A stretch of 64,000 nucleotides of DNA from positions 1,860,001 through 1,924,000 of the forward strand of contig NZ_JACCAE010000001.1 in the NCBI RefSeq assembly GCF_013409205.1, in the 5' to 3' direction. Each line of letters starts with the position of its first letter. Positions within the stretch are counted from its first letter, which is position 1. Origin of the DNA: Janibacter cremeus. Lineage in GTDB: Bacteria; Actinomycetota; Actinomycetes; Actinomycetales; Dermatophilaceae. The position numbers and the translations under genes were made by a program. Below are positions 1,721 through 63,004 of the stretch, piece by piece. The notes under the pieces were generated by a model that was given only the letters and a program-made list of their open reading frames with translations, did no database searches and was not told where the DNA came from.

Positions 1721-2478
1721 GCGCCGCCGCACGAGACGAAGGGGGGACGTCCTCCCCCTTCGTCCTCGTCGGTATGTCGCCGCGAGAGGCTGCTGACCGC
1801 TGTGATCTCGACCGGTTGGCCGCGGCCACGGGGGCGAGCGTCGCATTCCTGCAGATGGCTGATCCATCGCTGGCCGCCGCGCTGACCCGGCTGGCTGACA
1901 ACGGTGCCGAGGACGTCCGTCTGGTCGCCGCGCGGCTGGGGTCCACGGGCCCTGCCAACTCCTGGCTGAGGCGCATCGCCGGCCACTGGGTGCGTGGACG
2001 CCGTGCCGCGTCCCTGCCCCTGCCAACCGTCCACGTGGCAACCACGATGCTGCGCCGGGACCCCACCGTCGAGGGCGTCATGACTGCGCTGCGAGAGACT
2101 CGGCGGATCACCGGTGACGAGGCCGGGCTGACGTCCGCGGCCTGGGACGAGGTCCCGGGCCATCGGCATCACGTCCTGGTCTGCCGGGGCCCGCGGTGTA
2201 CTGCGGCGGGATCCGAGGGAACTCTCGGGGCGATCACTGCTGGGCTGCGCGCGGACGGCCACGCAGATGACCGGGCGCTCGTCACGGTCACCGGATGCCT
2301 CTTCCCGTGCAATCACGCACCGGTGGTGGTGGTTCAGCCCGATGACGTCTGGTACTCGGCGGTGGACCCCGATGGTGCCGGGAGCATCATCGAGCAGCAC
2401 CTCCTGCGCGGTACGCCGGTCGCCGAACATCGCCTGGTACGGCCGCCAGAACTCGGTCGTGTGCCGGGGGCGGATTGA
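1717..2478 (+). CDS. CbiX-like chelatase domain fused to [2Fe-2S] thioredoxin-like ferredoxin
   Basis: A 253-residue, two-part protein. The N-terminal about 140 residues resemble a single CbiX/SirB-type sirohydrochlorin chelatase half-domain, with FVLVGMSP early and VHVATTML later. The C-terminal about 100 residues look like a thioredoxin-fold [2Fe-2S] ferredoxin with four candidate ligand cysteines, C156 and C161 in CRGPRC and C194 and C198 in GCLFPC. The start is the ATG overlapping the ATPase stop. Sitting last in a FecCD operon suggests a role in handling an imported tetrapyrrole, cobalt or iron. The chelatase part is divergent, so activity is uncertain. Two copies of the window-wide GAAGGGGG motif lie in its first 45 bases. 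Confidence 0.65.
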   Translation: MSAAARDEGGTSSPFVLVGMSPREAADRCDLDRLAAATGASVAFLQMADPSLAAALTRLADNGAEDVRLVAARLGSTGPANSWLRRIAGHWVRGRRAASLPLPTVHVATTMLRRDPTVEGVMTALRETRRITGDEAGLTSAAWDEVPGHRHHVLVCRGPRCTAAGSEGTLGAITAGLRADGHADDRALVTVTGCLFPCNHAPVVVVQPDDVWYSAVDPDGAGSIIEQHLLRGTPVAEHRLVRPPELGRVPGAD

Positions 2479-2480
2479 CA

Positions 2481-2494
2481 TAGCCTTGTCGGTC
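2481..2494 (+). promoter_or_regulatory. Leaderless-type -10 element for the DrrA-like gene
   Basis: TAGCCT at 2481-2486 matches the actinobacterial TANNNT -10 pattern and ends 8 nt before the GTG at 2495. No ribosome binding site precedes that GTG, which is consistent with a leaderless transcript. Confidence 0.4.
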
Positions 2495-3469: not shown

Positions 3470-4293
3470 ACCACCTCGCCAGCGACTCCTGGACGATCGT
3501 CCGGCGCAACCTGATCAAGATCAAGCGGGTCCCCGACCTGCTCGTCTTCACCACGCTGCAGCCGATCATGTTCGTGCTGCTCTTCGGCTTCGTCTTCGGC
3601 TCGCTCGCGATGGGCAATGCAGACGGCTATCGCGAGTTCATGATGGCCGGCATCTTTGCCCAGACCGTCGTCTTCGGCGGCACGTACACCGGCTTCGGGA
3701 TGGCCGAGGACATGCAGAAGGGGGTCATCGACCGCTTTCGTACGCTGCCGATGCACCCCGGTGCGGTCCTCATCGGTCGCACCCTGTCGGATGTGGTCAA
3801 CAACGTCATCTCCCTCATCGTCATGGCCGTGACCGGACTGGCCATCGGGTGGCGAGTGCACGAGGGCATCGTCCCGGTGACGCTCGCATTCCTGCTCCTG
3901 CTGCTCTTCGCCTACGCGATCAGCTGGATCATGGCGTGGGTCGGGTTGAAGGTGCGCAGCCCGGAGATCGTCGGCAACGCCTCCTTCCTCGTCATCTTCC
4001 CGCTGACGTTCATCGCCAACACCTTCGTCCCCGCAGAGAACCTGCCTGCGGTGCTGCGGACCTTCGCCGGCTGGAATCCCGTCTCGACACTGGCGCACGC
4101 CGCCCGCGAGAACTTCGGCAACCTCGACTCCCTCGCCGGTCAGGGGATGACCGGGCAGGCGGCCCGTGAGGCCGCCGAGTACACCTGGGCTCTGCAGCAC
4201 GCGGAGATCTACACGCTCGCCTGGGTGCTCCTCATCCTCGCGATCTTCGTGCCACTGTCGATCAGGACCTACCAGCGCACCGTCCTGCGCTGA
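3466..4293 (+). CDS. ABC-2 type exporter permease (DrrB family)
   Basis: A 275-residue integral membrane protein with about six hydrophobic segments, the length and layout of DrrB-type permeases. The conserved ABC-2 region DRFRTLPMHPGAVLIGRTLSD follows the second helix. It overlaps the ATPase gene by four bases and forms the exporter with it in the inner membrane. A copy of GAAGGGGG lies in the coding sequence at 3717-3724. Confidence 0.88.
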   Translation: MNHLASDSWTIVRRNLIKIKRVPDLLVFTTLQPIMFVLLFGFVFGSLAMGNADGYREFMMAGIFAQTVVFGGTYTGFGMAEDMQKGVIDRFRTLPMHPGAVLIGRTLSDVVNNVISLIVMAVTGLAIGWRVHEGIVPVTLAFLLLLLFAYAISWIMAWVGLKVRSPEIVGNASFLVIFPLTFIANTFVPAENLPAVLRTFAGWNPVSTLAHAARENFGNLDSLAGQGMTGQAAREAAEYTWALQHAEIYTLAWVLLILAIFVPLSIRTYQRTVLR

Positions 4294-4319
4294 CCCGCCT
4301 CTCCAGGAGGAGCGATCAC

Positions 4320-5719: not shown

Positions 5720-7663
5720 TCAGACGCGGTGGCGCAGGCCGGTGGCGCGCTGGGTGCGACGGGTGATCGCGGCGCGGATCGCCTCCTGCGAGCCGACGAG
5801 GAGGACTGACTTCTGCGCGCGGGTGATCGCGGTGTAGAGCAACTCGCGAGTCAGGAGTCGTGAGTCCGCGTCGGGCAGGAGCACGGTCACCGAGGTCGCC
5901 TGGCTGCCCTGGCTCTTGTGGATCGTCATCGCGTGAGCGGTGTCGACGTCCGCGAGGGACGTCGCGGCGTGCACCTGCGGCGCCCCGGGTTCGCCGAAGA
6001 CCCCGACAACGCGGCCGTCCCGGCGCAGTGACATCACCCCGGCGTCGCCGTTGAAGAGCCCGAGGCCGCGGTCGTTCGCGGTCACGAGCAGCGGCCGCCC
6101 GACCTGCTGCCGGCCGTGGTAGTCGGTCGCCTCGCCGAGCCAGCGCTCGACCCGGTCGTTCCACGGGCCGACGCCCCAGGGGCCGTCGCGGTGGGCGCAG
6201 AGCAGCCGGTGCTCCCCGAGCTCGTGCAGGGCCGCCGCGTACTCCCCGTCGAGGGCGAGCCGACGCAACCGCAGGGCGTGCTCCAGCAGCCGTGGTCGCA
6301 GCGCCTCGTCGGCCTCGAGGACGTGGTCGACGTGGATGTGCTGCACCGGACCACCCGGTGTGGCCGAGGCGAGGGTCGACAGAGCCCTGTCGGCATCGCC
6401 GACCCGTACGGCTTCGGCCAGGGCTCCGATCTCCGCGCCGAACCGGTGCGACGTCTCCAGTCGCGCGACCGGGCTGCTGCCCCTCTTCGGGGCTTCCTTC
6501 GAGGGTGCTTCGTCGTACCACCCACTCGTAGCGTGGGACCCAAGGGCATCGCCCTCGCCGTCCCTCGGGGAACCGCCCTCGCCGTAGCCGGCGACGAGGT
6601 CGGCGAGCACCGCACCGGCCTCGACGGAGGCCAGCTGGTCGGGGTCGCCGACGAGCAGGAGACGGGTGTTGGGGCGTAGTGCCTCGAGGAGTCGGGCGGT
6701 GAGTGTCAGCGAGAGCATCGACGCCTCGTCGACGACGACGATGTCGTGCGGTAGGGGGTTGCCGCGCCCGCGGCGGAAGCGGTTGCCGCTGTCCGGGCGC
6801 CACCCGAGCAGGCGGTGGACGGTCACGGCCTCGATATCCGTGCCCAGACGCTCCCGGTCCTGGGGGGAGAGCCTTGCGAGGGACTCGATGACCGACTCCC
6901 GCAGGCGGGCGGCGGCCTTGCCGGTCGGTGCGGCCAGCGCGATACGTGGGCGGCGGCCGGTGGCCTCCGCCTGCTCGAGCAGCAGCGTCAGGAGGCCGGC
7001 GACGGTCGAGGTCTTGCCGGTTCCGGGGCCGCCCGCGAGCACGGTGGTCAGGCGGGTGACGGCGGTGCGCACGGCATCGCTCTGCTCGGTCCAGCTCGCA
7101 CCGGGGAAGACCCGCTGCAGCCCGGCCGCGAGCTTCGCCTCGTCGACGGCCGGCGCGGGGGTGGCGGCGCGTCGGGCGAGGTCCTCGGCGACCTGCACCT
7201 CCTCGCGGTGGTAGCGGTCGAGGTAGACCAGGCCGTGCTCGACCCGCAGCACCCCGGCGGCCGTGAGTGCGCTGTCGGCCACGCGTTGCAGCCACTCATC
7301 GGCAGGCGGCAGGTCAGTCCAGGCATCTTTGGTGGCCACGTCACCGGTGGAGTTGCCTGCGGGCGAAGCTCCGCTCGCGAGAACATCAACCGAAAGGTCG
7401 TCCTCCTCGCCGGTCGCGGTCTCGGTGAGCAGCTCGTGAGCGTGCTCGGGCTCCAGGCACGTCGATCCTTCGCGGGCGGCGCGCACGACGAGTGCGAGCG
7501 TCACGCGCACGAGCGGGTCGTGCTCGTCGACGAGCTGCGCCAACCGGGTGGCGACGTGCACGTCGGCGGCCTCGATGATGCCAGCGGCGTTCAGGTCCGC
7601 GAGGTCGCCGGTCGCGCCGAGGGCCAGGCGACGGTCGTACCGGTCCTGCTCGACCGTGGTCAT
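5720..7663 (-). CDS. recD: RecBCD helicase-nuclease, RecD (alpha) subunit
   Basis: A 647-residue SF1 helicase subunit that moves 5' to 3' within RecBCD during double-strand-break processing. Walker A is GGPGTGKTST at residues 211-220, followed by APTGKA (245-250), DEASM (312-316), GDPDQL (339-344) and SHRFG near 405. The start ATG overlaps the recB stop by four bases. Between the GDPDQL and SHRFG motifs, residues about 360-397 are a low-complexity insert rich in G, S, E and K that looks foreign to the helicase core. It is the last gene of a recC-recB-recD operon and ends at a long hairpin. Confidence 0.95.
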   Translation of the reverse strand: MTTVEQDRYDRRLALGATGDLADLNAAGIIEAADVHVATRLAQLVDEHDPLVRVTLALVVRAAREGSTCLEPEHAHELLTETATGEEDDLSVDVLASGASPAGNSTGDVATKDAWTDLPPADEWLQRVADSALTAAGVLRVEHGLVYLDRYHREEVQVAEDLARRAATPAPAVDEAKLAAGLQRVFPGASWTEQSDAVRTAVTRLTTVLAGGPGTGKTSTVAGLLTLLLEQAEATGRRPRIALAAPTGKAAARLRESVIESLARLSPQDRERLGTDIEAVTVHRLLGWRPDSGNRFRRGRGNPLPHDIVVVDEASMLSLTLTARLLEALRPNTRLLLVGDPDQLASVEAGAVLADLVAGYGEGGSPRDGEGDALGSHATSGWYDEAPSKEAPKRGSSPVARLETSHRFGAEIGALAEAVRVGDADRALSTLASATPGGPVQHIHVDHVLEADEALRPRLLEHALRLRRLALDGEYAAALHELGEHRLLCAHRDGPWGVGPWNDRVERWLGEATDYHGRQQVGRPLLVTANDRGLGLFNGDAGVMSLRRDGRVVGVFGEPGAPQVHAATSLADVDTAHAMTIHKSQGSQATSVTVLLPDADSRLLTRELLYTAITRAQKSVLLVGSQEAIRAAITRRTQRATGLRHRV

Positions 7664-10600
7664 CGTGCCTCCTGGGTCCCGTGCTCGCGAGGTGCGTCGG
7701 TCGTCGCGGGGCGGCGCCCGTCGAGCAGGTCGGAGAGGGCCTCGACCAGGGCAATCGGCGGCTGCCAGGAGAAGACGCCCGTGGGGTGGCCGTCGACGAT
7801 GGGCGTCTGGGTCCCGGCCATGCCGCGCAGGTACAGGTAGAGCACCCCGCCGAAGTGCTCCTGCGGGTCGTACCCGGGCTGGCGCCAGCGCAGGAAACGG
7901 TGCAGGACCACGCCGTAGAGGATCGCCTGGAGCGGGTAGGACGAGTGGTTCATCGCCTCGCGCAGGGCGTCCGGCTCGTAGTGTCCGGTCGTCAGCGGAG
8001 TGTCCGCGGGGCCGAGCCAGTTGCTCTTGTAGTCGACGACGAGGTGGCGTCCGCCCACGCGCAGGACGATGTCGACGGAGCCGGTGAGGTACCCGCGCAG
8101 GGCCTGGCCCCCGAGCAGCGGGTCCTCCAGCACGTCCGCGAAGGGCAGCACCGGGTCTCCCTCGGGCAGGTGCTCGCGCATGAGCGTCGCGAGATCACCG
8201 AGCAGTGCCTGGTCGACGGCGTCGCCCGCGTCGTCGCCACCTCCGAGCGGTAGCTCGAAGTCCATCTCGCACAACCGGTCGCTGCTGCCGATGTCGCGCA
8301 GGGAGGTCCCCGGCGCGAGCGGACCGAGCGGGGTGTCGATGACCTCGACGAGCGCCTCGGCGAGGGTGTCACGGTCGAGGTCGGGCACGGGCCAGTGGAC
8401 GACCTGCTCCTCGACGTGCGCCCGCAGCTGCGTGAGCAGGTCGGGCGCGGACACGTCCGCCTCTTCCAGCACCGCGTGCACGAGGGAGCCGAAGCCGGCC
8501 CCGACGGGCAACTCGGCCATGGGCGAGGGGAGGTGCCCCCCTTCGTCATCGTCGGGGGCGTCCCCACGGACGGCAGCGAGCGGGACATCGCCCTGCAATT
8601 CACCCGGGCGGAGCATCGGAGCCGTTCCGTCGCGCCCCCGGGCGCCGCCCTCGTCGTCCTGGCGCTCGGTGACCTCCGGCTCGCTGACGACGAGCTCCTC
8701 CGCGGGGCGGGGCGCCTCGTCCAGCGGGCGGGTGAGCGCCGTGTACGAGGTGCGACGCCACTGGGTGTCGACGCTGCGGGTGAAGGAGCGCACGGACAGG
8801 TCCGTCACCGGCGCGGCCGCCTCGATGGTCATGGGAGCCGCCTCGTCGACGAGCTCGACACGCAGCGCCCCCCGGCGCTCCCACTCCTCGAGCCGGTCCA
8901 TCAGGGTCTCGTCGCCGGGGACGGGGTGGCTGGCGGGAACCTCGCCCTGGCCCTCGCGACGTCCGAGGAGCACGCGGTGCAGGGGGGAGGGGGCGGTGTT
9001 CTTCGCCGACGGGAACCACCACGTCACGACCTGGCTCTGCGCGCGCGTCATCGCGACGTACAGCAGCCGCAGCGACTCGCCGCTCTCCTCGTCGGCCGCC
9101 CGCGTGAGCCGGTCGGCGCGCCCCTCGTCGGAGCGGATCCCGATGTCGAGGCAGCGGGTGCGGTCCTCGCGGTGGAAGTGCAGCACGTCCGGTGTCGGCA
9201 GCCACCGGTCGGCGACGAAGGGCAGCATGACGATCGGGTACTGCAGCCCCTTGCTCGAGTGGATGGTCGCCAGGTGCACGGCGTCCGCGTCGCTGTCGAG
9301 TCGCCGGGCGCGCTCCTCCTTGCGGGTGGCGCCGATCCGCTCGCGCAGCCACGCGGTGAGCGAGGCAAGACCGTCACCCTCGGTGACGACGCGCTGGTGG
9401 AGCGTCTCGCCGACGTGGCGCAGGTCGGTCAGCAGACGCTCACCATCGGTCCGGGAGAGCACCCGCGCATCAAGACCGTCGGCGCTGGCCGCCGCGAGCA
9501 CCGCGGCCACCCCACGCCGTGAGAGCAGCCCCGCCCACGTGCGCATCCGGTGGGCGACCTCCTCGGTGAGGTCGTGGCCACGCTCGTCCAAAGTGGCGGC
9601 GTTCGCCCCGACGAAGGGGGTCAGCGCCGCCGCGCGCACCCGCTCGGGTCGGTGGCTCAGCTCCATCGCCTCGAGCAGGGTCAGCCAGGCCGCGGCGGCG
9701 GGAGAGGCGTAGATGCTGTCGCTGGAGACGATGACCGAGCGCAGCCCGACCGCGGTGAGTGCCCGGCGCACGTGGTCGAGCTGGCTGCGGGTGTGCGCGA
9801 GGACGGCGACGTCCCCGGCACGCAGGGGACGAGCGTCGAAGGTCGTGCCCCGTGCCAGCAGCCGGGTGATCTCGGCGGCGCAGTCGTCCGCCACGAGCGG
9901 GCGCACCGCCGAGATGGCGACGGACTTCTCGCCGGGCGGCAGGATCCGCTCGGTCGTGATCGCCCGTAGCCGGACCGGGGCGAGCATCCCCTCGGGGGCG
10001 GTGCGCTCTCTCGTACCCAGGCGCGATCCCCCCTTCGCCGCGCTCACCGGGTGGACGACGATCTCGGGGTCGCCGAGCTGAGAGCCGCCCAGAAGCACCC
10101 CGAGGCTGCGCACGAGTGGCCCGTCGGAGCGGTGGTTGACTCCGAGGGTGTGCTTGGTCGTCGCCGTGGCGGAGGCGGTGAGGTAGGTGTCGACGTCACC
10201 GCCACGGAAGCCGTAGATCGCCTGCTTCGGGTCGCCGATGAGCACGAGCGTGCTGTGCCCGGTGAAGGCGCGGTCGAGCACCTGCCACTGCACCGGGTCC
10301 GTGTCCTGGAACTCGTCGACGAGCACGACCTTCCAGCGCTGGCGCATCCGCTCGCGGGCGGGCGAGTCCTCGGCCTCGAGGGCGCTCGCCAGGTGGGAGA
10401 GCAGGTCGTCGTAGCCGAGCACCCCGAGGCGGCGCTTGCGACGGTCCATCTCCGTGCGCACGAGGTGGGCGAAACCCAGCATCCGCGCATCGGCGGACCC
10501 GTCGTCGCGCGTGTGCGGGTCGAGGGTGGCGTGGGGGTTCTCCGTGACGGCACGCGCGATCTCGCCGGCACGTGCCCGGGTGAAGGCGGGCGTGCCCCCA

Positions 10601-11100
10601 CCGGCGAAGCCGCGCACGTACAGGTCGTCGACGACCTCGTCGCGCAGGTCGGACAGGTCCTCGACGAGCCGGGAGTGCGGGTCGGAGTCACCGGCCACGC
10701 CGAGCCCGCGCAGCACGAGCTGGCAGAACTGGTGGGTCGTGGCGATCGTCGCCGCGTCGAAGTGGGTCAGCGCGTCCCGCAGTCGACGCTCCTTCAGGGC
10801 CACCTCGTCCGGGCTCCCGTCCCGCAGGAGGGCCACGACCGGGTCGTCGCTGGTGAGGTCGGGGTCGACGAGGTGCTGGTGGACGTGGCGCAGGTGCCCG
10901 CGCACCCGTTCGCGCATCTCGCGGGAGGCCGCGCGGCCGAAGGTGATGACGAGCATCTCCTCCAGCGGTGTGCCGTCGGCGATGTAGCGGGCGACCAGGG
11001 CGCCGATAGTCCACGTCTTGCCGGTGCCGGCGCTCGCCTCGAGCAGGACCGTGCCGGTCGGCAGGTCTGCGGTCACGTCGAAGGGGGTCAGTGTGCTCAT
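7660..11100 (-). CDS. recB: RecBCD helicase-nuclease, RecB (beta) subunit
   Basis: A 1146-residue UvrD-type helicase fused to a C-terminal nuclease. The Walker A region EASAGTGKTW is at residues 21-30, with DEFQDTDPVQW and GDPKQAIYGFRGGD in the helicase core. Near residue 1020 GSVDIVLRVGGRHLVVDYKS holds the nuclease aspartate and lysine expected of RecB. The start was moved from an open upstream frame to the ATG at 11100 because it overlaps the recC stop (ATGA) and begins the conserved N-terminus. Several GAAGGGGG copies lie in loop-coding parts, for example encoding DEGGH and AAKGGS. Confidence 0.95.
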   Translation of the reverse strand: MSTLTPFDVTADLPTGTVLLEASAGTGKTWTIGALVARYIADGTPLEEMLVITFGRAASREMRERVRGHLRHVHQHLVDPDLTSDDPVVALLRDGSPDEVALKERRLRDALTHFDAATIATTHQFCQLVLRGLGVAGDSDPHSRLVEDLSDLRDEVVDDLYVRGFAGGGTPAFTRARAGEIARAVTENPHATLDPHTRDDGSADARMLGFAHLVRTEMDRRKRRLGVLGYDDLLSHLASALEAEDSPARERMRQRWKVVLVDEFQDTDPVQWQVLDRAFTGHSTLVLIGDPKQAIYGFRGGDVDTYLTASATATTKHTLGVNHRSDGPLVRSLGVLLGGSQLGDPEIVVHPVSAAKGGSRLGTRERTAPEGMLAPVRLRAITTERILPPGEKSVAISAVRPLVADDCAAEITRLLARGTTFDARPLRAGDVAVLAHTRSQLDHVRRALTAVGLRSVIVSSDSIYASPAAAAWLTLLEAMELSHRPERVRAAALTPFVGANAATLDERGHDLTEEVAHRMRTWAGLLSRRGVAAVLAAASADGLDARVLSRTDGERLLTDLRHVGETLHQRVVTEGDGLASLTAWLRERIGATRKEERARRLDSDADAVHLATIHSSKGLQYPIVMLPFVADRWLPTPDVLHFHREDRTRCLDIGIRSDEGRADRLTRAADEESGESLRLLYVAMTRAQSQVVTWWFPSAKNTAPSPLHRVLLGRREGQGEVPASHPVPGDETLMDRLEEWERRGALRVELVDEAAPMTIEAAAPVTDLSVRSFTRSVDTQWRRTSYTALTRPLDEAPRPAEELVVSEPEVTERQDDEGGARGRDGTAPMLRPGELQGDVPLAAVRGDAPDDDEGGHLPSPMAELPVGAGFGSLVHAVLEEADVSAPDLLTQLRAHVEEQVVHWPVPDLDRDTLAEALVEVIDTPLGPLAPGTSLRDIGSSDRLCEMDFELPLGGGDDAGDAVDQALLGDLATLMREHLPEGDPVLPFADVLEDPLLGGQALRGYLTGSVDIVLRVGGRHLVVDYKSNWLGPADTPLTTGHYEPDALREAMNHSSYPLQAILYGVVLHRFLRWRQPGYDPQEHFGGVLYLYLRGMAGTQTPIVDGHPTGVFSWQPPIALVEALSDLLDGRRPATTDAPREHGTQEAR

Positions 11101-14100
11101 GCGGTCCCCGTGATGTTGTCGATGGCCGGGCCCCACACCTTCGGGGCGAGGGCGGCCAGGTTCGTGCCCGACCCGGCGACGTCGTCGAGCAGGACGGCGA
11201 AGGGGGCCCGGTTCCCGTGGACGAGCTGCCACCACGAGTCGTCCTGCTCGCCGGGGATGACCCCGCCGTTGCGCATCCGGGTCGGCTCCCACTCACCCCG
11301 GGCCCTGGTGGTCGCGACCCGGGCGAGGGTGTGGTTGCGCTCGATGGCCTGGGCCCAGGCGTGCGCGGTCTTGACCGGCAGGGGCAGCGGCGCGGTGAGG
11401 CCGAGCGCGTAGAGGTCGATCAGCGCGGACAGGTGCGAGCGGGCTGCCTCGCGCGGCAGCGGTCCGCGGGTGGCGCGGGCGACCGACCCCCGAGACCCTT
11501 TGCCCAGGGCTGACGCCTGCCACGGCTCGTCGTCACCACCAGTGGCGGTGAGGGCGAGCAGGCGGATCCACGAGCCGATCTCCTGCTTGGGGCCGAGGCG
11601 GGAGTAGGTGACGTCGACGAGGTGCATCCCGCGGACGCCGTCGATGGTCCCGGTCAGCCGGCGGTTGCCGAGCAGGGCGACCTCGACGTCGACCGACCGG
11701 TTCGGGTCGGCGGGGCCGCTGGCCACCTGGGCCATGAGCTGCTCGACCTGTCGACCGATCTCCTCGAGGGTGATCGCGCCGAGCCCCGCCGGCGGAAGCT
11801 CCCCCCGCAGCAGCTCGGCCCGGTAGATCTCGCGCGCGTCGTCACCGGCGAGCCGGGCGCGCAGGGCGCGGTCGCCGATGGCCCACTTCTGCAGGCCGTC
11901 GAGGTCGATCGGCAGCCGGTCACTGACCTCCTCGGCCTCCCGGGAGACCCCGACGTGCAGTCGGTCGCGCAGGAATCCCCGCGCCGGGTTCTCGAAGAAG
12001 GTGATCAGGTCGGCCAGCGCGACGTCCTCGACGGACTGACCGGGCAACGGCTGCGTGAGGAGTCGCCCCGGCTCGGTGCGCTCACCGAGGCTCGCGCGGG
12101 CGGCAGCCAGCGCGGAGCGGTCGAAGGTGAAGGGCCGTGGTGGAGCGGTCGACCCGTCCGACGTCGCCGCACCAGCCCCGGCCAGCGCTCCGGGAGCGAG
12201 GTTGCGGGCGTCGAAGGGCTGCAGCGGGTGCGCGACCACCTCGACCGGCGCGCTCGTCGTCTCGCGAGCGGCATCGATGAGCTCCCCGAGCGGTACCGCC
12301 GGCGGGCAGTGCTCGCCGCTGCGCTCGTCGGAGCCGGTGTAGGTGATGACGAGGCGCTCGCGGGCGGCGAGGACGGCGTCGAGGAGGAGCTGCCGGTCCT
12401 CGCTGCGGGCGTCGCGCTCGCCGGTCAGCGGCACGCGGGCGAGGACGTCGTCGCCGTCGACGGTCTGCTGGCGCGGGAAGGCGTCGTCGTCCATGCCGAG
12501 CAGGCACACGACGCGGTGGGGCACCGAGCGCATCGGGGTCATCGTGCAGACGGTCAGCCCGCCGGTGCGGAAGCTCGCCCGGCTCGGGCGTCCGGCCAGC
12601 TGGTCGGCGAGCAGGACGCGCACGTCGGCCAGTCGCAGCGGCACGCTGTCGTCGGCGTGGCGGGCAGCGCGGGTGAGGGTGCGCTGCAGGTCCCCGACCT
12701 GCCAGCGCTCGCGAACCGGGACATCGGTGAGGGACAGCACGGCCTCGGTCAGCCCGCTCATCCACTCGCCGGCCGTGCGGGCAGCCTCGAGGGTGTCGAG
12801 GCCGGAGCCGATTCGCTCGAGCATCTCGGTGACGCGGCCCACCAGGTCGACGGAACCGCTGCCGACGTCGTCGAGCGGCATGACCTCGCCGACCTGGAGG
12901 GGCCCGTCGGCGGACACGGCGACCCCGAGCAGCAGTCGATCGAGACCGAACCGCCACGTCCCCTGGTGCTCCACCTCCATGCGAAAGGGGGCGCGGTGCT
13001 CCTGGTCGTAGCCCCACCGGATACCGGAGTCGCCGACCCAGCCGGTCAGCGTCTCGAGGTCATCGTCGCCGAGGGCGAAGCGGCGGCGCACCGGCTCGCT
13101 CGCGGCCAGATCGAGCACCTCGCTCGCGGTGAGGCGACCACCGGCGAGGGCGACGAGTCGGTCGGCCACGTCGAGCAGAGGGTTGGTCGCCCGCAGCGAG
13201 CGGTCGGCCAGGCGCACCCGCAGCCGGTGCGCGGGGTGGGTGTCGACACCCTCGGCGTCGGTGCCGTGGTCGCCGAGGCCGAAGGCCGCACCGATGAGGG
13301 GCGCGTAGGTCTCCACGTCCGGGCACATGACGAGCACGTCGCGCGGCTGAAGGCTCGGGTCGTCCTCGAGGAGACCGACGAGCACCTCACGCAGCACCTC
13401 GACCTGACGGGCGGGGCCGTGGCAGGCGTGGACCTGGATCGACCGGTCGGCATCGGGGACGGTGCGGGCGGCCTGCTCAGCGGCATCGGGGACATGGTCC
13501 TCGCGCAGGTCCGACTGCAACCAGCCCAGGACGGTCTGCGGGAAGGCCGGGGCCGCCGCCGGGGCGGTGGCATCCTCGGCCCGGTCACCGAGGACCCGCA
13601 CGAGCTCGCGGGAGTCGCGGCCGAGCGAGGCGAGCATCGGGTGGTGGACCAGATCGCTCGTGCGGTCCTGCGATCGTGGCACGACCCCGGTCGCTCCGGC
13701 GTCGGCGAGTCGGTCCCACAGCACGGGCGAGGGCTGCGGCAGCCACAGGTGCACGTCACGGGAGAGCCCGAGCGCCTCGAGCAGCTCGACCTCGGTGACC
13801 GCGAGGCGCGTGTGCCCGAAGAGGGAGAGCCGTTCCGGAAGGAGCCGCAGATCCAGCCCGTCGCGGTCATCCGCGTCAGCCGTGGCGGTCCCCCCTTCGC
13901 CCAGGGCCTGCAACCGGGCCACCGTCTCGCGGTGGCGCACGTCCGGCGTGGGTGCGTCGATGCGGGCCCGGAGGCGTCGCCACAGCTCGGGCTGCCAGGC
14001 CAGGTCGTCGGCCAGGGGGGCGGTGCCGCCGGTGCTGTCGCGCCCCCGGCTCCAGTCGGTGAGCATCGTCGGACGGCTCTGGCCGTAACGGTGGAAGAGT

Positions 14101-14531: not shown

Positions 14532-14543
14532 GATCAGACCGTA
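14532..14543 (-). promoter_or_regulatory. Leaderless-type -10 (TACGGT) for recC
   Basis: On the minus strand TACGGT (14543-14538) ends six bases before the recC GTG. No ribosome binding site is visible, so the recCBD message may be leaderless. Confidence 0.4.
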
Positions 14544-14616
14544 TCCGTGGCCGGGGACAGCGTGGGCCCGCACGTCCACAGCAGCCTTGCCGTCCGAGGT
14601 CGTCGGCAGCGACTGA

Positions 14617-15460: not shown

Positions 15461-15846
15461 GTCGGTGGTACCTCGACACCTCGGCTGCACTGAAGTTGAT
15501 GGTCGAGGAGTCGGAGTCGACCGCGCTCGCTGATCGACTCGACACCGAGGCCCCGGACCTTGTTGCCTGTTTGCTGCTGGAGACGGAGCTACGTCGCGCG
15601 GCCCAGCGAAGGGAGGTCCTGTCGCAGGAGCGTGTGTCCCAGTTCCTGGAGTGGGTCGGCTTGTTCGAGGTGCCGGCCTCGCTCTTCCGCGAGGCCGGCC
15701 TCGTGACGGGCGCCAACCTGCGGTCGCTCGACGCACTGCACCTTGCAGCAGCGGTGCGGATCGGCGTCGACGCCGTGGTCACCTATGACCAGCGCATGGC
15801 AGAGGCCTCCCGTGCCCTGGGCTTCGCCGTTGTGGCTCCTGGCTGA
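15457..15846 (+). CDS. VapC-like PIN-domain toxin
   Basis: A 129-residue PIN-domain ribonuclease. The conserved acidic residues are visible as D7 in YLDTSA, E42 in LLLETEL, D91 in SLDALHLAAA and D104 or D110 near the end. PIN toxins cleave tRNA, rRNA or mRNA when freed of antitoxin. It overlaps the antitoxin gene and appears intact. The target is unknown. Confidence 0.88.
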   Translation: MSRWYLDTSAALKLMVEESESTALADRLDTEAPDLVACLLLETELRRAAQRREVLSQERVSQFLEWVGLFEVPASLFREAGLVTGANLRSLDALHLAAAVRIGVDAVVTYDQRMAEASRALGFAVVAPG

Positions 15847-15969: not shown

Positions 15970-16938
<969 letters not shown>

Positions 16939-40584: not shown

Positions 40585-40635
40585 CGGCCTGCTCCCTTCG
40601 TCCGGGCGAGGGAGCACACGCCCCCTTCGAAGTGG

Positions 40636-52027: not shown

Positions 52028-52065
52028 GGTCGCCGCTCCCTTCGTCCGCCGGTGTGACTGCCCTC

Positions 52066-52094: not shown

Positions 52095-52160
52095 CTCCCA
52101 CCAACCAGCAGCACTTCGTATCGGGGAGGGCGAAGGGGGTGGCCGCCGGCGCCGAAGCAG

Positions 52161-53693
52161 TTACCAGGGGTGCGGCCCGAAGTCCTTGAGGAAGACGCCG
52201 TGCAGGTCCTCACCACGCTCGCCGCGCACGATCGGGTCGTAGACGCGGGCGGCACCGTCGACGAGGTCGAGGGGTGCGTGCCAGCCCTCAGCCGCGATCG
52301 CCAGCTTCTCGTGGTGGGGGCGCTCATCGGTGATCCAGCCGGTGTCGACGGCCGTCATCAGGATCCGGTCACTGGTGAACATCTCGCCGGCGGAGGTGCG
52401 GGTGAGCATGTTGAGCGAGGCCTTGGCCATGTTGGTGTGCGGGTGGCCCGCGCCCTTGTAGCGGCGGGAGAACTGCCCTTCCATCGCGGAGACGTTGACG
52501 ACGTACGCCCTGGCGGTGTCCTCGTGGGTGAGCTGCTCCCGTCGCCGCTCGACGGCCGCCCGCAGCGCCGGGCGCAGCCGGGAGACCAGCAGGAAGGGGG
52601 CCACCGAGTTGCACATCTGCACCTCGAGGAGCTCCAGGGGGTCGACCTCGTCGACGGTCTGCTTCCACGAGTTGGTCGTGACGACGTCCGGCAGCAGCCC
52701 GCCGGCGTCGATGGCGGTGCCGGCCCGGTGCGCCTCGAGACTGGCGCTGCCCGCGCTCAGCGCCAGCCGCGTCATGTCCGCTGCTCCCGGGGCTTCGAGG
52801 CTCGGCCGCGGACGGCCTCGCACCTCAGCCACCGGAGCAAGGAACTGCGGTCCCTGAGGTGCGACGGAGGAGCCTCGAAGGGACTCCAAGGAGAGCATCG
52901 TCGGCATCGGCACGCCGCTCGGCAGCGGCTGCGACTCGCCCTCGACGAGGTGGGAGTAGGCGCCGGGGGAGCGGCGAACCGTCTGGCAGGCGTTGTTGAT
53001 GAGGATGTCGAGCGGCCCTGCGGCAGCGACCTCGTCGGCCAGCGCGACGACCTGCGTGGGGTCGCGCAGGTCGATGCCGACGATCGTCAGCCGGTCGACC
53101 CATTCGGGCGAGTCGGCGAGTTCGGCGAAGCGCCGTGCCGCATCGCGCGGGAAACGTGTGGTGATCGTCAGGTCCGCGCCGTCGCGCAGCAGGCGCAGGG
53201 CGATGTACATGCCGATCTTGGCCCGCCCGCCGGTGAGCAGCGCGCGCCGTCCGGTCAGGTCGGTGCCCTGGTCGCGTCGCACGTGGTTCTGCGCGGCACA
53301 GTCGGGGCAGAGCGCGTGGTAGAACGCGTCGACCAGGGTGTAGTCGACCTTGCAGACGTAGCAGCCGCGTGGGATCTGCAGCTCGCCCGCGAATCGCTGC
53401 CCGCCGGCCACGGACGAGGTGAGGGGGACCCCCTTCGTCTCGTCGTCGATGCGCAGAGGTGACCCCGTCGCCGTCTGGTCGAGGACCGCCTGATCGTGCG
53501 CGAGTTTCGGGGCGCGCTCGGCGTGCCGGGCCCGGCGTCGGGCCGCCTTGCGCACCCGGTTGTGCATCGTGCCGGTGGCCCGCTTGACCGTCTGGATGTC
53601 CTGGTGGCCGGGAGGCAGCTCGTGGAGCATCCCCAGGACGCGAAGGGTGGTGGTCAGGTCGTCGGGGTCGACGCCGGTGGGGTGGTCGGTCAC
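52161..53693 (-). CDS. Short-chain dehydrogenase with N-terminal zinc ribbon and in-frame palindromic insert
   Basis: A 510-residue protein. The N-terminal about 140 residues include a CxxC pair set, CYVCKVDY and LCPDCAAQN, suggesting a zinc ribbon. A Rossmann SDR domain follows (RRALLTGGRAKIGMYIALRLLRDGADLTI; NNACQT; NVSAMEGQFSRRYKGAGHPHTNMAKAS with the Ser-Tyr-Lys positions). Residues about 270-300 are encoded by a palindromic repeat (52793-52880) and have no place in the fold. The GTG start has TACGCT eight bases upstream. The substrate is unknown; the length is about twice that of a simple SDR. Confidence 0.78.
   Translation of the reverse strand: MTDHPTGVDPDDLTTTLRVLGMLHELPPGHQDIQTVKRATGTMHNRVRKAARRRARHAERAPKLAHDQAVLDQTATGSPLRIDDETKGVPLTSSVAGGQRFAGELQIPRGCYVCKVDYTLVDAFYHALCPDCAAQNHVRRDQGTDLTGRRALLTGGRAKIGMYIALRLLRDGADLTITTRFPRDAARRFAELADSPEWVDRLTIVGIDLRDPTQVVALADEVAAAGPLDILINNACQTVRRSPGAYSHLVEGESQPLPSGVPMPTMLSLESLRGSSVAPQGPQFLAPVAEVRGRPRPSLEAPGAADMTRLALSAGSASLEAHRAGTAIDAGGLLPDVVTTNSWKQTVDEVDPLELLEVQMCNSVAPFLLVSRLRPALRAAVERRREQLTHEDTARAYVVNVSAMEGQFSRRYKGAGHPHTNMAKASLNMLTRTSAGEMFTSDRILMTAVDTGWITDERPHHEKLAIAAEGWHAPLDLVDGAARVYDPIVRGERGEDLHGVFLKDFGPHPW
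52793..52880. repeat. REP-like palindromic element inside the SDR gene
   Basis: An 88-bp imperfect palindrome: outer arms CTTCGAGGCTC (52793-52803) and GAGCCTCGAAG (52870-52880), inner arms CGCACCTCAG (52819-52828) and CTGAGGTGCG (52854-52863). It is read through in frame. It resembles the CTTCGAGGCTC-type intergenic repeats I recall from other actinobacterial genomes. Confidence 0.7.
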
Positions 53694-56143: not shown

Positions 56144-56932
56144 TCAGGCGAAGGGGAGGTCCGTCGCCAGCCCCTCGGGTGACCCAGGCTCCGCGTAGTG
56201 CTCGACGCCGAAGGCGGCGGCGAACACCTCCGGGGGCATGGCCAGCATCTGCTGGACGTCGGCCTGGGAGGCGTGGCAAGCGAGCGCCGCCCGTTTGCCG
56301 TCGATGACCTCGGAGACGTCGACGGCATGGTGGATCTCGCTTTGCGGCAGGCCCATCGGGTTGCCGTCGTCCATCGGGTCGTCCGCGTCGAAGTCCGCGT
56401 CGACCCCCATCTCCCGGGCTGCAGTGAGCAGCTCGCGCATCCGGTCCCGATTCATCGTGTTCTCCAGGACCCGAGGACGGCGGGCAGCCAGCTCCGCGGC
56501 GCGGTGGGCGACGTGGTGGACCTTGACGTGGTCGGGGTGGCCGTAGCCGCCGTGCCAGTCGTAGCCGACGAGGATGTCCGCGTCCTCCTCGTCGAGGATC
56601 GCGGCGAGCCGTCGGGCCGCTTCGTCGAGGTCGGCCCCGTGGAAGGAGGTCGCGTGGCCGTTCTGCTCCCACCCGGTCATCCCCGAGTCGCTGTAGCCGA
56701 GCCACTCGACGCGGGCGGCACCCGTGATGGCGGCGGAAGCCATCGCCTCGGTGCGGCGGTGCTCGGCGAGGGAGCCCCCTTCGTCCATGTCCGACGGCAC
56801 GGTGCCGTGCTCGCCGAAGGTGGCGTAGACGAGGACGACGCGGTGCCCGGCCCGGGAGGTGAGGATCATCGATCCGGCGGTGCCGCTCGCCTCGTCGTCG
56901 GGGTGGGCGTGCAGGAAGACGGTGGTGGTCAC
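56144..56932 (-). CDS. PIG-L family deacetylase (MshB/Mca-like)
   Basis: A 262-residue zinc deacetylase. The HAHPDDEASGTAG motif (HPDDE at 10-14) and GHPDHVKVHH supply the metal ligands. In actinobacteria this family includes MshB (mycothiol synthesis) and Mca (cleavage of mycothiol conjugates); the SHPDDE-type start and length fit, but I cannot separate them. The GTG start follows CAGAAT by seven bases. The MDEGGS loop is encoded by a CGAAGGGGG copy. Confidence 0.82.
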   Translation of the reverse strand: MTTTVFLHAHPDDEASGTAGSMILTSRAGHRVVLVYATFGEHGTVPSDMDEGGSLAEHRRTEAMASAAITGAARVEWLGYSDSGMTGWEQNGHATSFHGADLDEAARRLAAILDEEDADILVGYDWHGGYGHPDHVKVHHVAHRAAELAARRPRVLENTMNRDRMRELLTAAREMGVDADFDADDPMDDGNPMGLPQSEIHHAVDVSEVIDGKRAALACHASQADVQQMLAMPPEVFAAAFGVEHYAEPGSPEGLATDLPFA

Positions 56933-56945: not shown

Positions 56946-56990
56946 CCGTGCGCGAAGGGGGTCTGTCGCACCCCCGTGCACGAGCCATAG

Positions 56991-58045: not shown

Positions 58046-59028
58046 CGACCGCACTCACGCGCGGAGCCGCCCCGGCCAAGGGGCGGCTCCTCGACGGCAA
58101 GCTGGCCCTGGGCACGCTTGCCGTCGTTGTGCTGCTCGCCCTCTCCCTCGTCACCGGCGTCTATGACGTCTTCGGCGCCGAGGACGGCGCCGAGATGTTC
58201 GCCATCACCCGGGTCCCGCGCACCATCGCCCTCGTGCTCGCCGGCGCGGCCATGTCGATGTCCGGGCTGGTGATGCAGCTGCTCACCCAGAACCGCTTCG
58301 TCGAGCCCACGACGACGGGGACGACCGAGTGGGCGGGCCTGGGCCTGCTCGCCGTGATGATCCTCTTCCCGACCGCCTCCCTGATGGAGCGAATGGTCGG
58401 GGCGGTCATCGCCGCCTTCATCGGCACGATGATCTTCTTCCTCTTCCTGCGCCGGGTGTCGTTGCGCTCCTCGCTGATCGTCCCGATCATCGGCATCATG
58501 CTCGGCGCCGTCGTCGGCTCCATCTCGACCTTCATCGCCCTGCAGACCGACATGCTGCAGAACCTCGGCGTGTGGTTCGCCGGCAGCTTCACCTCGGTGC
58601 TGCGCGGTCAGTACGAGGTGCTGTGGATCGTCGCCCTCGTCGGGGTGGCGGTGTTCGTCGTCGCCGACCGATTCACCGTCGCGGGCCTCGGCGAGGAGAT
58701 CGCGACGAACGTCGGACTCAACTACAACCAGGTGCTGCTCATCGGTACCGGCCTGATCGCGATCGCCACCGGGGTCGTCACGGTCGTCGTGGGCAACCTG
58801 CCCTTCCTCGGGTTGATCGTGCCCAATGTCGTCTCGATGGTCCGTGGCGACGACCTGCGCAGCAACCTGCCCTGGGTCTGCCTGCTCGGTATCGCGATCG
58901 TCACCGTGTGCGACCTCATCGGGCGGACGATCATCGCCCCCTTCGAGGTGCCGGTCTCCCTGATCCTCGGGGTCGTCGGCGCCGTCGTCTTCATCACCCT
59001 CCTGCTCAGGCAGCGCAGCCGTGGCTGA
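58042..59028 (+). CDS. Siderophore ABC transporter permease 1, probable CTG start
   Basis: A FecCD-family permease of 328 residues if started at CTG 58042. That codon overlaps the preceding stop as CTGA and has GAGGGGAA 5-6 bp upstream; the first GTG at 58129 would delete the N-terminal basic region and part of helix 1. Family motifs are TRVPRTIALVLAGAAMSMSGL, EPTTTGTTEWAGLG and VVGNLPFLGLIVPNVVSMV. It pairs with the next permease. Confidence 0.85.
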   Translation: MTTALTRGAAPAKGRLLDGKLALGTLAVVVLLALSLVTGVYDVFGAEDGAEMFAITRVPRTIALVLAGAAMSMSGLVMQLLTQNRFVEPTTTGTTEWAGLGLLAVMILFPTASLMERMVGAVIAAFIGTMIFFLFLRRVSLRSSLIVPIIGIMLGAVVGSISTFIALQTDMLQNLGVWFAGSFTSVLRGQYEVLWIVALVGVAVFVVADRFTVAGLGEEIATNVGLNYNQVLLIGTGLIAIATGVVTVVVGNLPFLGLIVPNVVSMVRGDDLRSNLPWVCLLGIAIVTVCDLIGRTIIAPFEVPVSLILGVVGAVVFITLLLRQRSRG

Positions 59029-60831: not shown

Positions 60832-60837
60832 GCCCGG

Positions 60838-60895: not shown

Positions 60896-60953
60896 GTGGT
60901 TGCTGCGGAGAACCTCCTTGCCAGCGGCTGCGGAGCGGGGAAGAGTCGTCCCC

Positions 60954-61796
60954 ATGAGGCCTCACCCCGAACAGCACTGGCTGCCGATGGACACGTACCT
61001 CGAGGCGATCGAGCGGGAGTCACGGCGCTTCCGGGAGGTCCTCGTCGACCAGCCCGCCGGCACCCCGGTACCCAGCTGTCCCGGCTGGGACGTCGACGAC
61101 CTGCTGTGGCACCTCGGGGGAGGGGACGTCCAGCACTTCTGGGCCTGGATCGTCGCCAACCGACCGGAGGGGCCCCAGGACTACCCTCAGCCGGAGCGGC
61201 CGACGGACCGGCACGGGATCCTCGCCGTCCTCGACCGGGCGCAGGGGGACCTCATGCTCCGGCTGCGCAACGCCGACCCGGCCGACGGGTGCTGGTCCTG
61301 GGCGTCGGACACCTCCCTCCACACGGTCGCCTTCACGATGCGTCGGCAGGCGCACGAGGCACTCATCCACCGTGTCGACGCCGAGCTCGCGGCGGGTGAG
61401 CGCACCCCGCTCGACCCGCACCTGGCCGCCGACGGCGTCGCCGAGTGCCTCGAGATGATGTACGGCGGGCTGCCCACGTGGGGGCACTTCGCGCCCGACG
61501 GCAGCCGCATCGCCGTCGACATCGACGACACGGGACATCGCGTGGTCCTGGGCCTGGGGCGATTCGCCGGGACCGACCCCGACACGGGCACGGTTGAGGA
61601 CGAGGACGACGTCCAAGTACTTGCGCACGAGCACACCAGCGAGCCCTCGAAACCCTTCGACCTCAGGGTCAGCGGCACCGCCGAGGACCTCGACCTGTGG
61701 CTGTGGCACCGCGCCGGCGCCTTCGAGCCCGGCATGAGCGGCGACGAGGAGATCGCCGGGCGGCTGCGGGCGATCCTCGCCCAGCCGATCGGCTGA
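60954..61796 (+). CDS. Mycothiol-dependent maleylpyruvate isomerase-family protein
   Basis: A 280-residue DinB-like metalloprotein of the MDMPI/TIGR03083 family. The metal-ligand set is H53 in LLWHLGGG and HEALIH (H134, E135, H139). Such proteins use mycothiol as thiol cofactor in isomerase or transferase reactions and are common in actinobacteria. The C-terminal half is a typical MDMPI_C domain. No aromatic-degradation genes adjoin, so the substrate is open. Confidence 0.8.
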   Translation: MRPHPEQHWLPMDTYLEAIERESRRFREVLVDQPAGTPVPSCPGWDVDDLLWHLGGGDVQHFWAWIVANRPEGPQDYPQPERPTDRHGILAVLDRAQGDLMLRLRNADPADGCWSWASDTSLHTVAFTMRRQAHEALIHRVDAELAAGERTPLDPHLAADGVAECLEMMYGGLPTWGHFAPDGSRIAVDIDDTGHRVVLGLGRFAGTDPDTGTVEDEDDVQVLAHEHTSEPSKPFDLRVSGTAEDLDLWLWHRAGAFEPGMSGDEEIAGRLRAILAQPIG

Positions 61797-61831
61797 GCCC
61801 GGGCTCGTCGTACCCGTCAATAGTGGCGGGG

Positions 61832-63004
61832 TCAGCCCATGACGGGCTGGGCCACGTGCGGCGCTGCCGACCCCGCGGCGGAGGCCAGTTCCTCCCGCCG
61901 CGCGTACGCCCACCCCGGCCCGCGCAGCAGGAACCCGAACCGCCCTGCCCACGTGGTCGCGTCGGCAACGTCAGCGGCGATGTCCCGCCACTCGTGGGTC
62001 GCGATCACCGCGGGGTGGTACGAGTCGATGTTGCTCGTGAGCCCGTAGCGCACCGGCTCGCCCTCCGGCTCGAAGGTCCCGAAGAGCTTGTCCCACAGGA
62101 TGAGGATCGAGCCGTGGTTGATGTCGAGATACTGCCGCTGGCTGCCGTGGTGGGCGCGGTGGTGACTGGGGGTGTTGAGGACCTTCTCCAGCCAGCCGAT
62201 CGAGCGCACCGCCTCGGTGTGGATCCAGAACTGGTAGATCAGGTTGATCGCTCGCGCGTCCTCGATGTAGCGCGGCGGGATCCCGGCCAGGGTCAGCACG
62301 CCGTACGGCAGCGCCATCGTGAAGGCCTCCGCCACCGGCTGCCGCAGCGCCGTCGAGAGGTTGTACCGCTCGCTGCTGTGGTGGACGACGTGCACCGCCC
62401 ACAGCCACCGGGACTCGTGGGAGAGGCGATGGTTCCAGTAGTAGATGAAGTCCCACCCGGCGATCGCGGCCAGGTACGTCAGCGCACCATGGCGCGCTGC
62501 GACCGGTGCCACGCGCGTGAGCCGCGTCGCGCTCGTGCCCAGCGCCCAGATCGAGGCGGCCGCGACGGCCGTCGAGCCGACGGCGACGACGGCAGACCGC
62601 GAGGTCATCAGGGAGAGCGCGTCGACGCGCGAGCGCACGGTCACCGGCGCGGAGGAGGAGGAGGGGAGCGTGCCCGCCTCGGGCAGCTGCCCGCCGCACT
62701 CCCGGCGACGTCGTACGACGTCGCCCACCGTGGTGACCACTCCGGCAGCCGCGCCGAGGGGCAGCAGGGCGGCGCCCCCCTTCGTCCGGCCGGGGGCGAG
62801 CCGCCGCACCACCGGACCGGTGACGAAGGGAGCGACCAGGCTCCCCACGCCCATCGTCAGGGACGCGATCGTGTCGCCCAGCTCGTAGTCACCGGCGCGC
62901 GTCGTCCCGGGCGCGGCGGGGTTGCGGCGCTGCCACCAGTACTCCGCGCCCATGGCGCCGATGAAAGCCGGGATCGCCAGGACGGTGAGGTCGGGTCGCT
63001 GCAT
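61832..63004 (-). CDS. Sterol desaturase/fatty acid hydroxylase-family protein
   Basis: A 390-residue di-iron membrane oxygenase family protein. The histidine clusters are HRLSH, HVVHHS and HRAHH, and the long hydrophobic N-terminus is followed by helices. The ATG at 63004 was chosen because AAGAAT ends six bases upstream; an ATG at 63019 is also in frame. The linker AGTLPSSSSAPV separates two helical parts. A CGAAGGGGG copy encodes TKGGAAL in the N-terminal region. The substrate is unknown; sphingoid or fatty-acid hydroxylation is typical. Confidence 0.85.
   Translation of the reverse strand: MQRPDLTVLAIPAFIGAMGAEYWWQRRNPAAPGTTRAGDYELGDTIASLTMGVGSLVAPFVTGPVVRRLAPGRTKGGAALLPLGAAAGVVTTVGDVVRRRRECGGQLPEAGTLPSSSSAPVTVRSRVDALSLMTSRSAVVAVGSTAVAAASIWALGTSATRLTRVAPVAARHGALTYLAAIAGWDFIYYWNHRLSHESRWLWAVHVVHHSSERYNLSTALRQPVAEAFTMALPYGVLTLAGIPPRYIEDARAINLIYQFWIHTEAVRSIGWLEKVLNTPSHHRAHHGSQRQYLDINHGSILILWDKLFGTFEPEGEPVRYGLTSNIDSYHPAVIATHEWRDIAADVADATTWAGRFGFLLRGPGWAYARREELASAAGSAAPHVAQPVMG

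Follow-up and report, generated by a model that had tools for sequence, protein, structure and literature searches.

A position-conserved G-rich word repeated across Janibacter chromosomes, a candidate DNA uptake sequence in a Gram-positive lineage

The octamer GAAGGGGG is strongly over-represented in a 64-kb stretch of the chromosome of Janibacter cremeus (hereafter the window; positions 1,860,001-1,924,000 of a genome that forms one contig of 3,307,489 bases). We find that it is the core of a longer word, approximately GRCGAAGGG(G/A)G, that is dispersed over the whole chromosome, occurs within genes in every reading frame and between genes, and is retained at orthologous positions in other Janibacter. 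The word is a maintained motif at the level of DNA and not a by-product of codon bias. Based on its overall pattern, we consider that it probably functions as a DNA uptake sequence for natural transformation in Janibacter and one related genus.

A sequence-only reading of the window had reported forty copies of the octamer, twenty per strand, in the range 1738-62783, with a leading C in 33 of them. The excess and the right-hand end of the range hold; the counts needed correction. A minus-strand copy at 1135-1142 had been missed, so the range is 1135-62783 and the window contains 41 copies (20 on the plus and 21 on the minus strand), 34 of them with the leading C (CGAAGGGGG). A second form, CGAAGGGAG, adds 7 copies. 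Among 100 shuffles of the window that preserve dinucleotides, GAAGGGGG occurred on average 2.38 times and at most 5 times, and none reached 41. By order-2 Markov z score, GAAGGGGG/CCCCCTTC ranks first among all 8-mers in the window (41 copies vs 3.2 expected). A Markov model of maximal order expects 36.6 copies for the 41 and is uninformative, because the motif itself inflates the counts of its sub-words.

The excess is genome-wide. In a sample of 40 stretches of 20 kb across the chromosome together with the window (in all 864 kb, or 26% of the genome), GAAGGGGG/CCCCCTTC is again the top 8-mer by order-3 z score (401 vs 52.5), and CGAAGGGGG occurs 351 times vs 22.6 expected under the order-3 model. 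Counts close to a Markov expectation, which the sequence-only reading had named as one way in which its claim might fail, were thus not seen with low-order models. The complete genome carries 1265 copies of CGAAGGGGG (609 forward and 656 reverse), compared with 25 (11 and 14) of the same word read backwards; about a thousand or more copies, far above expectation, is a feature of uptake sequences.

The alignment of 400 copies defines the extent of the motif. G is found at position -3 in 69% of copies, G (56%) or A (27%) at -2 and C at -1 in 88%, and there is little preference past the G run, where A follows directly in 20% of copies; weak preferences for C recur near +13 to +15 and +32 to +33. 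Among the 27 single-mismatch neighbours of CGAAGGGGG, CGAAGGGAG alone stands out (99 vs 21, 4.7-fold), the remaining 26 ranging from 0 to 2.6-fold (order-3 Markov, 864-kb sample), and the motif is therefore approximated by GRCGAAGGG(G/A)G. A longer repeat of the repetitive extragenic palindromic (REP) type was rejected, as base preference is largely limited to the region from about -3 to +8 and the majority of copies are within genes.

Genes were predicted in the 864-kb sample by a simple codon-usage script (807 genes, 88% coding, with approximate borders). Predicted genes contain 270 of the 351 copies of CGAAGGGGG and the remaining 81 are intergenic, corresponding to 0.36 and 0.76 per kb, respectively; this 2.1-fold preference for non-coding DNA is also a described feature of uptake sequences. 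When synonymous codons were shuffled within genes, 48.5 (50 shuffles) or 47.2 (40 shuffles) copies were expected in place of 270, a 5.7-fold excess, and all six frames were above expectation (sense frames 5, 88 and 53 vs 0.1, 15.6 and 1.9; antisense frames 11, 85 and 28 vs 0.1, 28.8 and 0.7). An artefact of codon usage, codon pairs or composition, the other way in which the over-representation might have been explained away, thus has a negligible probability. It is true that 173 of the 270 coding copies fall in the two frames built from common codons, NCG AAG GGG G and NCC CCC TTC G, but these two frames are still 5.7 and 2.9-fold enriched and the other four are 27 to 92-fold above their small expectations. 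The artefact is further contradicted by the higher density between genes, by the one-off words CGAAGGTGG and CGAAGGCGG, which in the same shuffles stay at expectation (ratios 0.91 and 1.03), and by 167 genomes of the same family that lack the enrichment. We consider it refuted by the synonymous shuffles together with the one-off controls. A signal acting at the RNA level was rejected as well, given the similar use of sense and antisense orientations (146 to 124 coding copies).

Conservation was assessed in eight congeners, using 40 kb around recBCD from each and aligning predicted genes codon by codon; the comparisons share ancestry and are not independent. For 24 coding sites, 71 of 123 comparisons had the exact word, where 33 were expected from the same genes and phases, and 83 of 123 had either the exact word or the second form. 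Twelve one-off words that are not enriched were kept in 13 of 42 comparisons vs 10.5 expected. Fourfold-degenerate positions were identical in 162 of 201 comparisons inside motifs and in 13480 of 20813 outside. The motif is therefore kept in congeners at roughly twice the rate of its gene background, unlike one-off words. Conservation is uneven, some sites being exact in all congeners compared and others in none, and the congeners' own sites in the same aligned genes sum to 106 over the eight, vs 123.

The distribution of the motif is sharply restricted. As the sequence-only reading had suggested, we compared sister genera in a survey of 186 genomes from 53 genera of the family, the J. cremeus genome included, and found the motif in only 19 genomes of two genera. 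All 16 Janibacter genomes carry it 797-1860 times (the one of 79% completeness 870 times), and all three genomes of a second genus (g64) have 1317-1939, so that it is shared by the clade as uptake sequences are; the other 167 genomes, from 51 genera, have 11-80. Across the phylum (396 genomes, again including J. cremeus) no further genome is comparable, the highest for its size being G541 with 126 copies in 2.0 Mb vs 19 for the control. Genus g64 uses the same motif, but A follows the G run more often, in 45% (G121) and 35% (G122) of copies, and intergenic preference is stronger, with densities between and within genes of 1.12 vs 0.20 per kb in G121 and 2.77 vs 0.43 in G122 (100 kb each). This distribution points to a single gain of the motif. 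The Janibacter genome with the fewest copies (G001; 797, sample 73% GC) has 26 sampled coding copies in three frames only, as might be the case for a motif that is younger, or in decay, in that genome. Its LeuS is 77% identical to that of J. cremeus. The closest LeuS proteins outside Janibacter are those of G120 (82%) and G121 (80%), and that of G122, from the same genus g64, is 74% identical; exchange between lineages that share the motif would be one explanation of this pattern.

Opposed pairs of the motif no more than 60 bases apart, a further feature of uptake sequences, occur in the 864-kb sample as 12 convergent and 5 divergent pairs. With 198 and 203 copies, by our arithmetic, some 3 pairs of each type would arise by chance, and therefore it is mainly the convergent pairs that are in excess. 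Some convergent pairs lie inside genes. Five intergenic ones were folded: the pair in the window reaches -23.2 kcal/mol and the other four, as long hairpins, -37.7 to -43.6, and the two forms together are densest in gaps between convergent genes (1.50 per kb, compared with 0.86 in tandem and 0.76 in divergent gaps). The intergenic pairs thus look like terminators, and transcription termination is predicted from the hairpins. Site density also follows base composition more steeply than composition alone would have it: in 1-kb bins there are 7 sites in 87 kb below 66% GC vs 255 in 439 kb above 70% GC, and bins below 62% GC hold 0.04 sites per kb, those above 70% about 0.6; by our calculation composition alone would account for a change of about 1.4-fold between 64 and 72% GC. 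One sampled stretch (L026; genome positions 907001-927000, 20 kb, 63% GC) contains no copy of the motif; it carries an IS256-type element and has partial similarity to records of actinobacterial plasmids.

The sequence-only reading had taken equal strand use as an argument against a polar signal, and rightly so. Taking the origin near dnaA (1,718,366), with the terminus assumed opposite, CGAAGGGGG is found 185 times on the leading and 166 times on the lagging strand (52.7%, z 1.0) and CGAAGGGAG 51 and 48 times (51.5%), compared with 1529 to 1076 for plain GGGGG; the window itself lies entirely on one side of dnaA. Absence of orientation bias is again shared with uptake sequences. A role as an FtsK-orienting polar sequence (KOPS), as another polar signal or as a methylation target would agree with the spread of the octamer over the whole chromosome, yet we regard this group of explanations as very improbable. 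KOPS-like polarity is rejected by the figures above, a strong polarity from origin to terminus being required of such sites. Sites of methyltransferases are usually shorter or bipartite, and usually neither enriched nor kept in place. Methylation therefore seems the weakest of the options raised by the sequence-only reading, since an asymmetric word of 9-11 bp that is strongly enriched and kept in position would be an unusual methyltransferase footprint. Those options, namely methylation, an uptake signal or a site for some other protein, are only partly supported, and an uptake signal fits best.

The main rival is that the word serves RecBCD of Janibacter as its Chi site, being read by RecC as single-stranded DNA and switching the enzyme from degradation to RecA loading, and we judge this unlikely. 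The gene content permits it: recBCD is present in the window, as the sequence-only reading had stated, and RecC is encoded by 15 of 16 Janibacter genomes (the miss being the 79% complete one) and all three of g64, compared with 7 of 20 genomes sampled from other genera of the family. Like known Chi sites the word is G-rich and asymmetric, it is depleted in low-GC DNA, and among intergenic copies of the two forms there is a mild excess on the leading strand (58 to 42). RecC was rejected as the trait that divides genomes with and without the motif, because it occurs both in g64 and in relatives without the motif, and its presence in both neither excludes nor proves a Chi role. The pattern of sites disfavours that role. 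With the same scripts, Chi in 200 kb of Escherichia coli K-12 is 2.45-fold over synonymous shuffles (the motif 5.7-fold), has 37 of its 43 coding copies in one frame (the motif uses all six) and is oriented with replication, 36 to 15 (36 of 51), which the motif is not. Chi is also rarer outside than inside genes (0.12 vs 0.30 per kb), in contrast to the intergenic preference of the motif, these E. coli densities being rough because gene calling was poor (71% of bases called coding). Hairpins and enrichment at the ends of convergent genes have no known role in Chi, and seven RecC-bearing genomes from other genera of the family have no motif. Three RecC-bearing relatives without it (G034, G025 and G036), and G030, which lacks RecC, showed no comparably strong short word in genes in 200 kb each; a Chi of ordinary strength would have escaped this search. 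About as unlikely is that the word binds an abundant, clade-specific protein that organises the chromosome or nucleoid. This would agree with its chromosome-wide spread, its use of both orientations, its retention in place and its intergenic preference, but such a site would have to be kept in coding sequence in every frame, and no nucleoid protein is known to us whose consensus is a 9-11 bp word like this one. Our search for clade-specific candidates covered competence, pilus and RecBCD genes.

Several short repeats of the relatives were noted in the same comparisons, and the REP-like ones differ in appearance from the motif. G030 has a dispersed word around CCCAGCGGCATACG, of which the 10-mer GCGGCATACG occurs 45 times in 200 kb, including 27 times between genes (L081-L090). 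Mainly intergenic repeats are tandem units with GCAACTGCCCGGGCAATTCAC in G001 (L054, about 12140-12490), GGTGGCGGGATTGCATGATCACG in G036 (L101-L110) and a palindrome of the TGCAAAACCCTAGGGTTTTGCA type in G008 (L061-L070).

Under the preferred explanation, a DNA uptake sequence, competent cells would capture free DNA with a filament on their surface, which is most likely to be a Flp/Tad pilus such as that of Micrococcus luteus, and a minor pilin or ComEA on this route would prefer DNA that carries the motif. The DNA could then be handed to ComEA and ComEC and recombined, alleles with the motif being taken up and spreading more often than alleles without it. Copies would accumulate in both orientations and in all frames that the proteins tolerate, chiefly between genes and in terminator-like hairpins, and newly arrived foreign islands would be without them. 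Uptake, its sequence specificity and its reader protein are what we infer here. Of eight descriptive features of uptake sequences that we tested, six are present, and the word therefore probably works like one; we do not class it as a proven member. That it is an uptake sequence outside the Pasteurellaceae and Neisseriaceae, in a Gram-positive organism, that arose on the lineage of the two genera and is read by a Flp/Tad-type pilus or ComEA in place of a type IV minor pilin, is a fuller claim that we hold to be only marginally better than even.

By gene content, the competence machinery is present in J. cremeus: comEA, comEC and two tad-type clusters. The comEA gene (262 amino acids; SLBB and helix-hairpin-helix domains) lies beside comEC at 520,053-523,225. 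The first tad cluster includes a T2SSE ATPase at 2,254,929 and two membrane-protein frames, followed by a symporter-like gene, a Flp-like frame with the site G/MTTAEY, and TadE-like and TadG-like frames, the small frames being recognised by eye. The symporter-like gene, also named by eye (L128, 12183-13634), stands between tadC and the Flp-like frame, and in G008 (L154) the corresponding tad frames are directly adjacent. The second cluster, at 2,709,656, encodes a T2SSE ATPase, two membrane proteins, a 70-amino-acid Flp-like frame, a TadE protein (PF07811) and a TadE/G-like protein (PF13400). Matches to T2SSE in this genome (51 of 62 candidates scored) comprise those in the two tad-type clusters and one below cut-off; thus no Neisseria-type pilus was seen, and the T2SSE matches gave no sign of a pilus type that only this clade has. 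Because relatives without the motif have the same machinery, any specificity of uptake would reside in an altered pilin or ComEA rather than in novel machinery. A ComEA record labelled Helicobacter pylori is Janibacter-like (59% identity), possibly from a contaminated or mislabelled assembly.

A number of results weigh against an uptake sequence. Perfect copies do not exceed single-mismatch copies (351 vs 667; 5 and 263 for the reversed control), unlike in Haemophilus influenzae. Spacing in the 864-kb sample is not clearly more regular than random (coefficient of variation 0.934 vs 0.97 +/- 0.05; 42 gaps shorter than 500 bases vs 57 +/- 6), and sites are sparser, at one per 2.6 kb, than the one per kb of the uptake signal sequence (USS) of Pasteurellaceae and the DNA uptake sequence (DUS) of Neisseriaceae. 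The second form is not clearly kept in congeners (5 of 16 comparisons vs 3.4 expected, at 4 positions only), and the mild intergenic lean to the leading strand also counts against this reading. The presence of RecBCD in genomes with the motif keeps a recombination reader in play. The machinery is shared with relatives that lack the motif (ComEC in 57 of 58 genomes, T2SSE-family proteins in 25 of 25, comEA in G016), and with ComEC and T2SSE ATPases equally present there, a clade-specific reader did not emerge. The Flp-like pilins were recognised by eye, and the one searched, the 70-amino-acid frame, has no Pfam match. Literature searches returned no match joining Janibacter with natural transformation; among the matches listed for Janibacter and competence, titles and abstracts concern microbiota or plants. 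Those listed for the octamer are unrelated by title. No report of an actinobacterial uptake sequence appeared among the titles and abstract openings listed, in a search that left out most subscription journals and is no proof of absence, and none is reported in the extracts consulted of PMC10526031, PMC6370729, PMC8467076 and PMC4322843.

Sites of the motif in the window are listed in the table.

Table. Copies of the motif, paired sites and recBCD genes in the window; exact n/m gives congeners with the identical word / congeners compared.
Feature	Context	Position	Strand	Exact n/m
GAAGGGGG	leading C; gene 914-1720	1135..1142	-	0/4
GAAGGGGG	leading C; left arm of inverted pair	1738..1745	+	
GAAGGGGG	leading C; right arm of inverted pair	1754..1761	-	
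Intergenic inverted pair	spacer 8; predicted hairpin -23.2 kcal/mol; downstream of predicted gene 914-1720	1737..1762		
GAAGGGGG	no leading C	3717..3724	+	
recC-recB-recD	candidate Chi reader; Pfam; NCBIfam TIGR01450, TIGR00609, TIGR01447 over cut-off	5720..14579	-	
GAAGGGGG	leading C; recB	8537..8544	-	0/4
GAAGGGGG	leading C; recB	9613..9620	+	5/8, second form in 2 more
GAAGGGGG	leading C; recB	10029..10036	-	1/7
GAAGGGGG	leading C; recB 5' end	11080..11087	+	8/8
GAAGGGGG	leading C; recC	11199..11206	+	4/8, second form in 3 more
GAAGGGGG	leading C; recC	13891..13898	-	1/6
CGAAGGGAG	second form; enriched in genome sample	15607..15615	+	
GAAGGGGG	leading C	16327..16334	+	6/7, second form in seventh
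GAAGGGGG	leading C	16427..16434	-	7/7
GAAGGGGG	leading C	19605..19612	-	3/7
GAAGGGGG	leading C	21382..21389	+	4/6
GAAGGGGG	leading C	23503..23510	-	3/6
GAAGGGGG	leading C	24358..24365	+	5/6
CGAAGGGAG	second form	25092..25100	+	
GAAGGGGG	no leading C	26767..26774	-	
GAAGGGGG	leading C	28140..28147	-	5/5
GAAGGGGG	no leading C	28280..28287	+	
GAAGGGGG	no leading C	28735..28742	+	
GAAGGGGG	leading C	30093..30100	-	5/5
GAAGGGGG	leading C	30817..30824	+	1/3
GAAGGGGG	leading C	31250..31257	-	0/1
GAAGGGGG	leading C	31394..31401	+	0/1
CGAAGGGAG	second form	31426..31434	+	
GAAGGGGG	no leading C	32423..32430	+	
GAAGGGGG	leading C	33367..33374	-	
GAAGGGGG	leading C	34507..34514	+	
GAAGGGGG	no leading C; left arm of divergent pair within predicted gene	35659..35666	-	
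GAAGGGGG	leading C; right arm of divergent pair	35681..35688	+	0/1
GAAGGGGG	leading C	37694..37701	+	
GAAGGGGG	leading C	38358..38365	-	
CGAAGGGAG	second form	40592..40600	-	
GAAGGGGG	leading C	40621..40628	-	
GAAGGGGG	leading C	47022..47029	+	
GAAGGGGG	leading C	47454..47461	-	
CGAAGGGAG	second form	47550..47558	+	
CGAAGGGAG	second form	52036..52044	-	
GAAGGGGG	leading C	52132..52139	+	
GAAGGGGG	no leading C	52593..52600	+	
GAAGGGGG	leading C	53429..53436	-	
GAAGGGGG	leading C	56775..56782	-	
GAAGGGGG	leading C	56954..56961	+	
GAAGGGGG	leading C	58937..58944	-	
GAAGGGGG	leading C	62776..62783	-	
CGAAGGGAG	second form	62824..62832	+	

The window also encodes a selenocysteine set, at 37403-40584 (-), 40636-40731 (-), 43379-44380 (+) and 48677-52027 (-). 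It consists of a SelB-like protein (under its NCBIfam cut-off), SelA, tRNA-Sec, SelD and the alpha subunit of a formate dehydrogenase, which has one in-frame TGA at residue 191.

Whatever reads it, some process keeps a word of 9-11 bp at more than 1000 places in two genera. Uptake sequences have so far been described for two Gram-negative families. If the word is one and is read as proposed, bacteria would have come to label their own DNA for exchange on a third occasion, with different machinery, and a high-GC Gram-positive case would allow tests of whether drive alone can give rise to such sequences, of which part reads the DNA and of whether they act as barriers to gene exchange. A transformation method for Janibacter, a genus known for degrading pollutants, could follow.

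Most properties of the motif match those given for USS and DUS in the extracts consulted of PMC1626085 and PMC3630211. Like the DUS of Neisseriaceae, which is read by the minor type IV pilin ComP, it is a word of about 10-12 bp that is present in one to several thousand copies, both within and between genes, forms terminator-like hairpins where two copies are opposed, is confined to one clade and shows slight dialects. Unlike DUS, it is less dense and unrelated in sequence, and its role in uptake is predicted; perfect copies of DUS do not outnumber single-mismatch copies either, according to the part of PMC3630211 consulted. The USS of Pasteurellaceae has in common with it a short asymmetric core, thousands of copies, absence of orientation bias, intergenic preference and presence throughout the clade, and differs in its AT-rich flanking tracts, its excess of perfect copies and its sequence. 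Chi sites of RecBCD and AddAB resemble the word in being G-rich, asymmetric and spread over the chromosome, here in a genome with RecBCD; the word is set apart by its absence of polarity, its six-frame and intergenic enrichment, its much stronger enrichment and its hairpins. For the machinery, the closest parallel is transformation by Flp/Tad pili in M. luteus, an actinobacterium in which, as in J. cremeus, two tad clusters accompany comEA and comEC. The consulted extracts of PMC4322843 describe both tad clusters as required there, knock-outs abolishing transformation, give the Flp processing site as G/XXXXEY and report tad genes together with comEA/comEC as frequent in Actinobacteria; those of PMC8467076 describe comEA and comEC as essential. 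The term 'uptake sequence' is absent from both papers, and for mycobacteria the consulted part of PMC10526031 (2023) states that none has been reported. Transformation is established in M. luteus; in Janibacter it is predicted from gene content.

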